From: a virus
DNA: 28,259 bases
IMG/VR virus record: IMGVR_UViG_3300008450_000345
Coordinates: 1 to 28,259 of that record
Reading direction: 5' to 3' (one strand)
Shown: positions 25,123 to 28,259 of the stretch, in pieces
How positions within the stretch are numbered: the first letter of the stretch is position 1
Layout: each line of letters begins with the position of its first letter
Program-made: the position numbers and the translations under genes
Notes under the pieces: generated by a model
The model's input: the letters and a program-made list of their open reading frames with translations, nothing else
The model's database searches: none
What the model was told of the DNA's origin: nothing

Positions 25123-25827
25123 CTATTTAAATTTTATATACCCATATTCTAAATAATGGGAATAGCTGTTTTTAAATATAGAATATAAAATATTAGCTAT
25201 TTTAGTGATTTTAGGTGTTTTTATATCTATAATTTCTCGAATGTAAATATATAATGCTTTTTTGTTAAAAATATCTAAATGTTCACGTTTACGAAATAAT
25301 TCAAGAATAGCATCTGCTGTTTTGGCATCATTTTCTTTAGGAAACAATTTATAAATATTATTTGTACAATACTCTACATATTGATCTATAAACCAATATA
25401 ATTGATCATTAGTACTAGTGTTATCATCTAATGTATATGAGAATTTTTCATCTTCACTAATGTTATCAATTTCAATTTTATCTACTCGTTTTTTATAGTT
25501 TTTAGCGTTGTCTATAATAAGATAACGTTTAGCTATAGTTCCAAAATAAGAGTAGGCTTTAGCGCCATTATCTGGGTTAAAACGATGAATTTTAGATAAT
25601 AAAAATATTATTACTTCATGTTGTAAATCTTCAATATTATCTACTTCAGTATAATAAAATTTAAAGGTATGAATAATATTCTCAGTTAATTTAAAAAATG
25701 CTGGGTGTATTTTTTCATAATAAATTTTACTTCTTTCTTTAATAGAACTAGTGTTATTATATAATATAATAGCTTTCTCAGTTTCTGAAGTGAAATATGG
25801 TATAGATTTCTTTTTTTGTTTAGCCAT
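25123..25827 (-). CDS. 55: Late-transcription sigma factor, T4 gp55-like
   Basis: 234 residues from ATG; T4 gp55 has 185. Residues 63-105 match sigma-70 region 2: DNIEDLQHEVIIFLLSKIHR and FNPDNGAKAYSYFGTIAKRY, then LIIDNAKNYKKR, which includes the core-binding helix and the aromatic-rich part that contacts the -10 element. The C-terminal half has helical segments (ADAILELFRKREHLDIFNKK; IYIREIIDIKTPKITKIANI) that could be a reduced region 4 or a partner-binding part. In T4, gp55 replaces host sigma at late promoters with gp33 and the sliding clamp. Position just before the tail genes fits a late regulator. The gene follows a small membrane-protein gene that contains an internal hairpin. Confidence 0.82.
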   Translation of the reverse strand: MAKQKKKSIPYFTSETEKAIILYNNTSSIKERSKIYYEKIHPAFFKLTENIIHTFKFYYTEVDNIEDLQHEVIIFLLSKIHRFNPDNGAKAYSYFGTIAKRYLIIDNAKNYKKRVDKIEIDNISEDEKFSYTLDDNTSTNDQLYWFIDQYVEYCTNNIYKLFPKENDAKTADAILELFRKREHLDIFNKKALYIYIREIIDIKTPKITKIANILYSIFKNSYSHYLEYGYIKFK

Positions 25828-25828
25828 A

Positions 25829-26101
25829 TTATTTAGGAATCTTATATTGATTTAGTATGTTTTGTATTTCTTTTACTTTAATAAAGAAAAATCCAATTTC
25901 ATCATCACTTTTAAACATACCTTTTTCATCAATTTCTTTTAATTTTTTATCTGTAAAATAAATAGCTTCATTGATACTATCCATGTATACTTTATAAGAA
26001 AATATGATATCTTCAGCTTTTTCATTTTTTCTTAAAAGATTAAAAGTCGTGAACCCTAGGATCACGACTAAAACACTTAATATACTAATTGCTATAACCA
26101 T
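25829..26101 (-). CDS. Small single-span membrane protein (90 aa)
   Basis: 90 residues, ATG overlapping the HD gene's stop by one base. Residues 1-23 (MVIAISILSVLVVILGFTTF plus NLL) form a single N-terminal membrane helix. The basic RK follows, then a cytoplasmic or periplasmic charged helical domain (AEDIIFSYKVYMDSINEAIY; KKLKEIDEKGMFKSDDEIGF). Similar N-anchored coiled proteins are common between the HD and sigma genes of aquatic T4-like phages, as I recall, with unknown function. An 8-bp perfect hairpin with a trailing T-rich tract lies inside its membrane-helix codons (26045-26069). Confidence 0.75.
   Translation of the reverse strand: MVIAISILSVLVVILGFTTFNLLRKNEKAEDIIFSYKVYMDSINEAIYFTDKKLKEIDEKGMFKSDDEIGFFFIKVKEIQNILNQYKIPK
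26045..26069 (-). terminator. Intragenic terminator-like hairpin
   Basis: On the coding strand AGTCGTGA, a 9-base loop, TCACGACT, then TTTAATCTTTT. The 8-bp perfect stem is GC-richer than its surroundings and lies about 30 bases into the small membrane-protein gene. It could attenuate transcription between the HD gene and the sigma factor, or be a chance result of the coding sequence. Confidence 0.4.
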
Positions 26102-26862
26102 TATAAATTATCTAACATGTTTTTTAAACTATCACTTTTAATGCTACCTAATGCTTTAGTTTTAGCTGGAACTTTAGATTTAACAATAGGTGTAGAAACT
26201 GGTGTATCACTGTTTAATTTAGGTGACCATTCACGTTCAAATTCAACACGAGCCGCTAATAAATCAGCTTGGTGTAAAATATAAATTAATGAAGTACGTG
26301 GTTTAGTTTCTGGCATGAAATTAATTAAATATGGTTTGTTTGCGTCATCATATAAACCATCATGTAATTTGATTGCTAACATTTCGTTCTTAGTAAATGT
26401 TACACCATGAGACATCAATAGATATAATCCACGATCTGGGACTGACATGAATTCTAAACGATCATTGAATTTATAATCTTCACCTAGTTTTTCTTTTCTC
26501 CATTGATCAGTTTGAGGAATATAAGCTTCGTTGTTCTCATCTCCCATTTTTCCTAAGTCATGATTTAGAGCTGAGAATACTAATTCTTCTAGAGTATATG
26601 TATTAGTATCAACTCCATATTTAATCCATATGTTATTGATATCAATAGCGCTATCTATTACTCGGAGTACATGTTCTACATATCCACCTGGAAATGCATT
26701 ATGATATTCTTTCTTATGAGCCGCTGGCATTAACATAATACGTTCAGCATATTTTTGATAGAACTCTTTAAGTTTAGTTCTACGAGGTTCTGAGATATAA
26801 GCGTCTATTCTAGACATTAATTTATCCCAGTTTTCAGATATTTGTTCAGCTGTTAAATTCAT
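26101..26862 (-). CDS. HD-domain phosphohydrolase
   Basis: 253 residues from ATG. The HD superfamily metal ligands are present: His64 in GGYVEHVLRVI (59-69), His101-Asp102 in SALNHDLGKMG (97-107), a further His167 in IKLHDGLYD, and Asp200 in LHQADLLAARVEFE. This arrangement resembles HD nucleases/phosphohydrolases of the YhaM or dNTPase-like types. The N-terminal 50 residues are helical (RTKLKEFYQKYAERIMLMPA). The C-terminal 40 residues are Lys/Ser/Pro-rich and probably a flexible tail. The substrate (nucleotide, RNA or a signalling nucleotide) cannot be told from sequence. Cleavage of a host second messenger is an attractive but unsupported idea. It follows the 66-residue gene by one base. 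Confidence 0.88.
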   Translation of the reverse strand: MNLTAEQISENWDKLMSRIDAYISEPRRTKLKEFYQKYAERIMLMPAAHKKEYHNAFPGGYVEHVLRVIDSAIDINNIWIKYGVDTNTYTLEELVFSALNHDLGKMGDENNEAYIPQTDQWRKEKLGEDYKFNDRLEFMSVPDRGLYLLMSHGVTFTKNEMLAIKLHDGLYDDANKPYLINFMPETKPRTSLIYILHQADLLAARVEFEREWSPKLNSDTPVSTPIVKSKVPAKTKALGSIKSDSLKNMLDNL

Positions 26863-26863
26863 A

Positions 26864-27064
26864 TTATTGTAATCCGTATCCTTCTTCTGGTGATAATGGT
26901 TCTTGTTGAATAAGTGATTTCACATCAGAAATAATTTCTTCAGTATAATTAAGTTTATTAATGAATTCTTGAATAGGTTCTCCTCTATTCACCATAAACT
27001 TCAGTGCTTTTAATTGTCCTTCTACGTGTTCTAATTTACGTGTTGTTAATTCTCTATATCTCAT
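26864..27064 (-). CDS. Small helical protein (66 aa), conserved in related phages
   Basis: 66 residues from ATG. It begins MRYRELTTRKLEHVEGQLKA, continues LKFMVNRGEPIQEFINKLNY and ends with LIQQEPLSPEEGYGLQ, predicted as a helical hairpin. I recall similar 'MRYRE(L/F)T.R' proteins from T4-like marine phages, all hypothetical. The VEGQLKALKFMV...G segment is loosely like the helices of CsoR/RcnR repressors, but the metal-binding Cys/His are absent, so this is weak. A purine-rich 12-13 base tandem array (27083-27154) lies in its leader. Autoregulation through that array is possible but unproven. Confidence 0.75.
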   Translation of the reverse strand: MRYRELTTRKLEHVEGQLKALKFMVNRGEPIQEFINKLNYTEEIISDVKSLIQQEPLSPEEGYGLQ

Positions 27065-27082
27065 ATTGTTTTTAATTTGTTT

Positions 27083-27154
27083 ATATCCCGTTATGTTACC
27101 CCGTTATGTTCCTCCGTTTCACTCATCCGTTCATCCTCTCGTTCACCTTTCCGT
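27083..27154 (-). repeat. Degenerate 12-13 base tandem array (ACGG units)
   Basis: On the minus strand six units begin with ACGG (one ACGA) at 27154, 27142, 27130, 27117, 27104 and 27091, so spacings are 12, 12, 13, 13 and 13. Unit examples are ACGGAAAGGTGA, ACGAGAGGATGA, ACGGATGAGTGAA, ACGGAGGAACATA and ACGGGGTAACATA. A seventh ACGG lies at 27175. The array is purine-rich on this strand and fills most of the 148-base gap between the genes at 27064 and 27213. The mixed 12/13 spacing argues against coding. The rest of the gap holds an imperfect inverted repeat (27171-27193). Confidence 0.65.
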
Positions 27155-27212
27155 CTCTTAATCCCTTAAACCCGTATTAAGAATATACGAGGGAATATTT
27201 ATTTAGCCAAAC

Positions 27213-27635
27213 TTAAGATAAATTATCTTTAATAATGTTAATAATTGGTAAAATAAAAGTACACTTCTCATACTCTTCATATTTTTCATAATATGATAAA
27301 GATAATTCTAACGCAACTAAAAACTCAGGATTTGTATTATTTTGTATAACCTGTAAATCAAGTTCACGCTTTATATCTAAACGTTTAAGAAAAACGTAAG
27401 ATCTTGTGTATATAATATACTCACCAGCATTACTAATGTCATTTATGTCTAAATCAGGGAAAATAGTTTTAAACAACGTTAAGTGGGCTGATTTAGAATT
27501 AGTATAATTTAGTATAATTCGAGTGAACATATTGATCCAAAACAGAGGATGTTCATTAATATCTTTAAATACTTGTTTTTTAGCATTTAAAGTTTCATTA
27601 TTTTCAAATAGTTCAAATATTTTGTTTATATCCAT
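27213..27635 (-). CDS. Hypothetical helical protein (140 aa)
   Basis: 140 residues, ATG at 27633-27635. It is all-helical by appearance: MDINKIFELFENNETLNAKK, then FKDINEHPLFWINMFTRIIL, SKSAHLTLFKTIFPDLDIND and LDIKRELDLQVIQ, ending FILPIINIIKDNLS. No motif or family is recognised. A clamp-loader small subunit (gp62-type) was considered because of size and helicity, but nothing specific supports it. The start lies 14 bases after a hairpin with a T-tract (27643-27690), so expression could be controlled by attenuation, or the hairpin could end an upstream RNA. Confidence 0.72.
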   Translation of the reverse strand: MDINKIFELFENNETLNAKKQVFKDINEHPLFWINMFTRIILNYTNSKSAHLTLFKTIFPDLDINDISNAGEYIIYTRSYVFLKRLDIKRELDLQVIQNNTNPEFLVALELSLSYYEKYEEYEKCTFILPIINIIKDNLS

Positions 27636-27642
27636 AATAACA

Positions 27643-27690
27643 GAGAAAACCCTCAGCAGTGTCTAGTACGTCTACTAGTCTTTCTGAGGG
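27643..27690 (-). terminator. Two-tier hairpin with T-tract upstream of the 140-aa gene
   Basis: On the coding strand an outer 7-bp stem CCCTCAG/CTGAGGG encloses an inner 6-bp stem CTAGTA/TACTAG with a GACG loop, followed by TTTTCTCTGTTATT. It is GC-richer than the surroundings. It may terminate an RNA made from 27691-27787 or act as a leader element of the gene at 27213-27635. Confidence 0.5.
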
Positions 27691-27787
27691 ATGTGACTAT
27701 AACTTATACCTTGGGCTATTCGTTTGTGCCACTACATGACCACTACGTTTGAGCTGTTCTAATGGGAAGCTTCGTGGTACTTTATAA
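27691..27787 (-). other. Non-coding stretch, possible small RNA body
   Basis: About 97 bases between the lipoprotein stop and the two-tier hairpin, more G+C-rich than its neighbours and without a start-to-stop frame of note. It contains direct repeats (GTAGTGG twice, 10 bases apart), GAAGCTTC, and ACCAC/GTGGT complementarity. With the downstream terminator-like hairpin it could be a phage small RNA. No known RNA family is recognised. Confidence 0.3.
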
Positions 27788-27979
27788 TTAGTTTACTGAA
27801 TCAATAGTAGTATCAATAACCATTGATTCATAGATTAACGAATCAACAGTAGTTGTATCAGCTGAGATAATAGCTGAATCTCCACCTAATAAACCTGAAT
27901 TTGTTTTGTTGTCTGATGCGCATGACGCAAATACTACTAATACTGCTGTGATAGCAGCTAAAATAATGTCTTTTTTCAT
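27788..27979 (-). CDS. Small phage lipoprotein (63 aa)
   Basis: 63 residues from ATG, preceded by an A-rich leader. MKKDIILAAITAVLVVFASC is a lipoprotein signal peptide with lipobox F-A-S-Cys20. The mature part begins CASDNKTNSG, with a polar, partly acidic stretch after the cysteine as in Bacteroidota lipoproteins, then a Thr/Ser/Asp-rich tail (SADTTTVDSLIYESMVIDTT). It should be lipid-anchored in the host envelope. A superinfection-exclusion role or an Rz1-like spanin role are possible; the tail is too short and non-proline-rich to say. A variant of the intergenic motif (AATATTTATTAT at 28021-28030) lies 42 bases upstream. Confidence 0.8.
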   Translation of the reverse strand: MKKDIILAAITAVLVVFASCASDNKTNSGLLGGDSAIISADTTTVDSLIYESMVIDTTIDSVN

Positions 27980-28032
27980 TTTTGTTTTGTTTTTAATTTA
28001 ATTGTTTGAAATATAATATATAATAAATATTA

Positions 28033-28259
28033 CTAATTGGCAAATTTAAGATCCTTTATTTTTAATCCTCCTTGTATAAAATTAAATTCAATATTTAATT
28101 TATCAATAATATAATCTTTAATAAGAGATTCATGTTCTGTTCCTGAGAAATTTTTAACTAAACCACTCACAAATGATTTCCAATCTTTATCCCAAAGAAT
28201 ATCTCTAGATTTAAGAGTATTTAATAATGTTCTTAAATTACGATTACTTGTTTTTAATT
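28033..28259 (-). CDS. Partial: C-terminal 74 residues of an unidentified protein
   Basis: A frame open from the window edge to TAG at 28033-28035. The last 74 residues contain SNRNLRTLLNTLKSRDILWD, KDWKSFVSGLVKNFSGTEHE and LIKDYIIDKLNIEFNFIQGG, ending KIKDLKFAN. It appears mixed helical with a final strand. The start is beyond the window and the fragment alone does not identify a family. The codon pattern is like its neighbours and no internal stop occurs, so it is likely real. Confidence 0.6.
   Translation of the reverse strand, partial: LKTSNRNLRTLLNTLKSRDILWDKDWKSFVSGLVKNFSGTEHESLIKDYIIDKLNIEFNFIQGGLKIKDLKFAN

Follow-up and report, generated by a model that had tools for sequence, protein, structure and literature searches.

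The stretch of viral DNA analysed here (IMG/VR record IMGVR_UViG_3300008450_000345, positions 1 to 28,259; hereafter the window, 28,259 nt) contains a regularly repeated, purine-rich sequence in a gap between two genes, and the question it raises is what such an array does there. The gap spans 148 nt (27065-27212) and is noncoding, as the sequence-only reading had held, and both genes that flank it lie on the minus strand, which makes the purine-rich one the sense (mRNA) strand. The six ACGG-type units at 12-13 base spacing described in that reading were also borne out. Seven ACG starts occur on the minus strand of the gap (27175, 27154, 27142, 27130, 27117, 27104 and 27091, the third of them ACGA), separated in that order by 21, 12, 12, 13, 13 and 13 nt; the last six form the array of ACGG/ACGA units, 12-13 nt apart (27088-27154, minus strand; ACG scan and TRF), while the extra ACGG at 27175 stands apart from them as part of the predicted transcript start.

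The array is real and striking. Six ACGG in 98 nt are found only here in the window, the best stretch elsewhere holding two, and 100 dinucleotide shuffles of the window gave a maximum of three. Its period-13 self-similarity is 46 versus 32.2 +/- 4.5 (p 0.003), and TRF independently called a period-13 repeat at 27087-27118. The last two units fall inside a 13-nt tandem duplication, AACATAACGGGGT / AACATAACGGGAT (27085-27110, minus strand), which can be read directly from the sequence and is reflected in the period-13 TRF repeat. The description of the array as nearly all purine went too far: the stretch is purine-rich, with a fraction of 0.73 that 89 of 28,162 windows of sequence match or exceed, and its G fraction of 0.35 is the more extreme value.

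Relatives of the locus were collected via the HD-type phosphohydrolase encoded nearby. Flavobacterium phage immuto, which is T4-like, has dozens of uncultured relatives in which the gap recurs between the same two genes, with the order of the 140-aa gene, gap, p66 and HD gene kept. Immuto is the only cultured relative; its HD protein is 49% identical to that of the window and its baseplate wedge protein 47% identical. From this kinship we take the window to be part of the genome of a T4-like phage, probably one that infects a Bacteroidota bacterium. Three contigs (L001-L003) belong to the same virus population as the window (>99.8% identical). Downstream of the gap, four minus-strand genes make up a predicted operon: p66 (26864-27064), an open reading frame for a 66-aa helical-hairpin protein that is conserved and always the next gene after the gap in relatives; the HD-type phosphohydrolase (26101-26862); an open reading frame for a 90-aa protein (25829-26101); and a sigma-like factor (25123-25827), whose match to Sigma70 region 2 (PF04542) scores 23.9 bits, just under the Pfam cut-off of 24. 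On the other side of the gap, the gene for the 140-aa protein (27213-27635, minus strand) is the conserved upstream neighbour, its stop codon abutting the predicted promoter described below. Further upstream, the 152-nt gap before the 140-aa gene (27636-27787, minus strand) contains a predicted hairpin (CCCUCAG...CUGAGGG) followed by UUUUCU, which is terminator- or attenuator-like, with a fold z-score of only -1.2 and no Rfam match. Beyond it lies a gene whose 63-aa product has a signal resembling that of lipoproteins (FASCAS; 27788-27979, minus strand), preceded by a promoter-like TTGCCA-N17-TATATT (28015-28043, minus strand).

When the same gap is aligned across relatives, a check that the sequence-only reading had itself proposed, the gap, a promoter motif and an element next to it, TACGGGTT, are kept, whereas the number, spacing and presence of the array units are not. 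The best-conserved stretch lies upstream of the array rather than in it (27211-27169), and consists of TTTGGC, 18 nt, TATATT, about 5 nt and TACGGGTT. The upstream box, TTTGGC (27206-27211, minus strand), is a phage-wide motif that occupies the corresponding position in almost every relative's gap, and the downstream box, TATATT (27182-27187, minus strand), 18 nt from it, resembles the Flavobacterium -7 element. With both boxes, the 18-nt spacing, the coding strand and a gene directly ahead (27211-27182), the site belongs to the promoter class TTTGGC-N18-TATATT that we defined in three genomes (G1, G2 and G3). The motif occurs on the coding strand 33 times in G1 (plus strand) and 41 times in G2 (minus strand), as against 0 to 1 matches of the reversed control; nearly all copies are 18-nt spaced and most lie just upstream of start codons. 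Genome-wide in G001, G002 and G003, TTTGGC-N18-TATATT(T) is strongly coding-strand specific and densest among small early-type genes. The motif resembles Bacteroidota primary-sigma promoters, for which the F. johnsoniae consensus is -33 TTTG / -7 TAHHTTTG (PMC6847099), in its TTTG upstream box, its TATATT(T) downstream box and a comparable spacing, but differs from them in its strong TTTGGC box, in a spacing kept strictly at 18 nt and in having TACGGGTT at the predicted start of this one operon.

Promoter spacing places the predicted transcription start at the A of TACGGGTT (27169-27176, minus strand; the A at 27175), so that the seventh ACGG would be the 5' end of the transcript. Among 53 distinct gaps selected by their proteins, TACGGGT is exact in 40 and present as a close variant in 52; we quote conservation of the element from this set only, because the pattern used to pick a set of 72 leaders itself contains TAC[GA][GA]GT. 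The combination of promoter and TACGGGT occurs once per genome in six of the seven relatives searched, in which TACGGGTT directly follows the promoter solely at the p66 operon, and those of the listed viral-contig matches whose geometry fits are followed by p66 homologues (a call made by eye on geometry and protein). At four similar loci (L039, L043, L046 and L072) the upstream boxes have changed but TACGGGTT is retained, and TACGGGT was not found in immuto's version of the gap. The promoter motif together with TACGGGTT is a more general result than the array.

Our favoured account, which we hold to be probable, is that the 148-base gap is an operon-specific promoter and regulatory leader carrying a lineage-specific 13-nt expansion. 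RNA polymerase would use the phage-wide TTTGGC-N18-TATATT and start at the A of TACGGGTT, producing a transcript that begins 5' ACGGGUU and continues into an unstructured, purine-rich leader; the gap would thus supply the promoter and 5' leader of the operon comprising p66, the HD phosphohydrolase, the 90-aa protein and the sigma-like factor. TACGGGTT and the AACG boxes downstream would most likely be operon-specific regulatory sites, bound as DNA or RNA, and the regular 13-nt array would be a lineage-specific expansion of these boxes, arising at least partly by short tandem duplication.

The predicted leader (27065-27175, minus strand) is noncoding, homologous to the leaders of divergent relatives and 73-77% purine, and it contains the array downstream of the predicted start. 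It is predicted to be unstructured, with an MFE of -2.9 kcal/mol over 110 nt that 191 of 200 shuffles equal or better, and there is no Rfam match in 26800-28259 at E up to 1; on these two grounds a structured RNA leader (a riboswitch or known Rfam element) was rejected. A leader-encoded peptide was likewise rejected (93 ATG in the leaders versus 94.4 expected), as was a regulon sharing the same leader element, since the leader profile matches the p66 site alone in each genome matched. Being unstructured and purine-rich, with an A-rich end before the ATG, the leader is like Bacteroidota leaders without a Shine-Dalgarno sequence (PMC6847099), but it is unlike them in being G-rich, in its repeated AACG boxes and in being longer than the leaders at these phages' other promoters. 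Among the 72 leaders, length ranges from about 12 to 121 nt: in L159 and L177, which have the same gap, the leader is too short (about 12 nt) to hold an array, and the short leader of L009 (p66 74% identical) has none either.

Such variability raises the alternative that everything downstream of the promoter is a neutral spacer, in which only purine-richness and lack of structure are needed for translation in a host without Shine-Dalgarno pairing, and slippage during replication would have produced the regular ACGG pattern. In line with this, the leader and that of L004, the nearest non-identical relative, align over about 64 bases and differ at 10, each an A/G exchange, which is the same, neutral rate as at the fourfold sites of the HD gene (12/76 changed). 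Three of the six units have become ACAG in L004, the ACGA unit is kept, and two units are lost in a deletion that covers the region of the tandem duplication AACATAACGGGGT / AACATAACGGGAT; because the array there evolves at the neutral rate and loses units, the downstream boxes are not essential in L004. Relatives' leaders are purine-rich as well (median 0.69) and vary freely in length, and upstream adenines, together with an absence of structure, tune translation in Flavobacterium (PMC6847099). Against a spacer stand the strong conservation of TACGGGTT, the similarity of the window's leader to divergent leaders above shuffles (z 6.9 for L194, 7.3 for L104 and 4.9 for L123), and the roughly twofold enrichment of AACG boxes across leaders, with 43 in 32 non-redundant leaders versus 22.3 expected and a maximum of 33 in 300 shuffles (a count uncorrected for kinship). 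We therefore regard the neutral spacer as a possible but distinctly less likely account.

The spacing of the AACG boxes differs by clade, being 13 nt in the window, L051, L123 and L194, 16 nt in L013 and L035, 8 nt in L011, L016 and L063, and 7 nt in L163; across clades, spacings of 7, 8, 13, 16 and 26 nt are found. The excess of 12-13 nt spacings (8 versus 0.5) comes mainly from the window and L051 and so is not independent evidence. At the level of sequence comparison, leader similarity, AACG enrichment and the leader profile support a putative operon-specific cis element with boxes turning over, and a fixed iteron lattice is not supported. In other clades (leaders of L104, L035 and L020) the boxes are AACGT/ACGTT-like at 8 or 16 nt spacing, and pairing between them could form a small hairpin ahead of the p66 start codon.

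The regular 12-13 nt spacing, and the G-rich non-template strand of the leader, make it worth weighing an origin of replication here, as iterons or as an R-loop-prone start, both of which the sequence-only reading had raised, together with a triplex. The comparison is fair, since 12-nt repeats at even intervals, whose role is unproven, are known from T4 oriE (PMC3016281). Both loci have short, regularly spaced direct repeats close to a promoter of early type in a T4-like phage, but in the window's case close relatives differ in how many units they have, how these are spaced and whether they are there at all. In the T4 oriE region, oriE lies inside gene 5. Relatives that share the gap carry a decayed array (L004) or none (L009, L159 and L177), and box spacing is clade-specific, which goes against origin iterons, whose unit and spacing should be kept among close relatives. 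Cumulative GC skew is a weak test here, because nearly every gene is on the same strand. In immuto and G2 the curve is monotonic or close to it, with no clear inversion at the site; in G1 it peaks at 149,679, some 4 kb away from the site (145.7 kb). An R-loop or triplex start fares no better, with purines at only 73-77% and a G-rich leader that is not conserved; a homopurine triplex calls for a near-complete purine strand, and at a fraction of 0.73 to 0.76 the triplex was rejected.

Immuto and related contigs have two ACCCGT arrays at another locus, one on each side of a similar noncoding stretch, with 11-13 nt spacing (mostly 12) and spacers that otherwise vary (L084:6319-6913, that is, MW353175.1 66318-66912; L278:7108-7499; L256:9382-9842; L313:4900-5600; also L265, L330 and L368). 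In immuto they lie about 10 kb upstream of p66, and their orientation relative to genes is opposite to that of the window array. Their resemblance to origin iterons is closer than that of the window array, a further point against an origin in the gap. The origin, R-loop and triplex readings are unsupported, and we consider an origin at this site, whether of iterons or of an R-loop-prone start, very improbable. Because the array follows a conserved promoter, in the untranslated start of the predicted mRNA, and expands and decays between relatives, we read it as part of a regulatory leader and not as an origin.

Purine-rich, GAACAGGTAGGGA-like arrays with a period of about 13 nt also occur on the sense strand between early genes in G001 (133806-133896, 134662-134731 and 135473-135506; L217) and G002 (94805-94926, reverse strand), those of G001 directly upstream of TTTGGC promoters. 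Scans of viral contigs with an ACGGGT-array pattern returned many coding repeats among the matches listed.

If the leader is regulatory, p66 might bind it, as the sequence-only reading suggested. The protein was expected to be helical, and an AlphaFold model (pLDDT 90) agrees, predicting a confident helical hairpin. In the operator version of this idea, p66 would bind TACGGGTT and the AACGG boxes and repress its own operon, analogous to CsoR/RcnR/FrmR systems, whose fold the p66 hairpin resembles in the model. That p66 is always the next gene fits this idea, as do the Foldseek search, in which CsoR/FrmR-family chains ranked first (E 0.2 or worse), and a PF02583 (CsoR/RcnR) match of the window protein (18.8 bits). 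This match falls under the cut-off of 22.8, however, and no PF02583 match was found in nine further p66 homologues; the third helix is short; the VIA Z of 8.8 ties with the 8.7 of designed hairpins; and a profile search of p66 against solved structures returned mostly coiled-coil noise. CsoR operators are pseudopalindromes (PMC3902906), which the candidate site TACGGGTT is not. The resemblance to CsoR is weak and membership of that family is not supported. Autoregulation by p66 is a testable idea rather than a finding, because the Pfam match is unrepeated and the VIA scores tie with designed hairpins, and we judge the operator array improbable. The family-wide form of the proposal, that in these Bacteroidota T4-like phages p66 binds TACGGGTT at its own start and AACGG leader boxes whose number and spacing are reset in each lineage, is in our view improbable too. 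The earlier suggestion of a regulatory, protein-binding type of sequence before the 66-aa gene is reasonable in general outline, given the conserved promoter and leader and the recurring AACG boxes; its specific proposals are weaker.

Under the promoter and leader reading that we favour, a conspicuous array of repeats need not mark an origin but can be a 5' leader open to change. For a large and almost uncultured group of Bacteroidota phages, the analysis defines a conserved promoter motif and a predicted start-site element, and part of the transcription programme of those phages thereby becomes testable in a Flavobacterium host.
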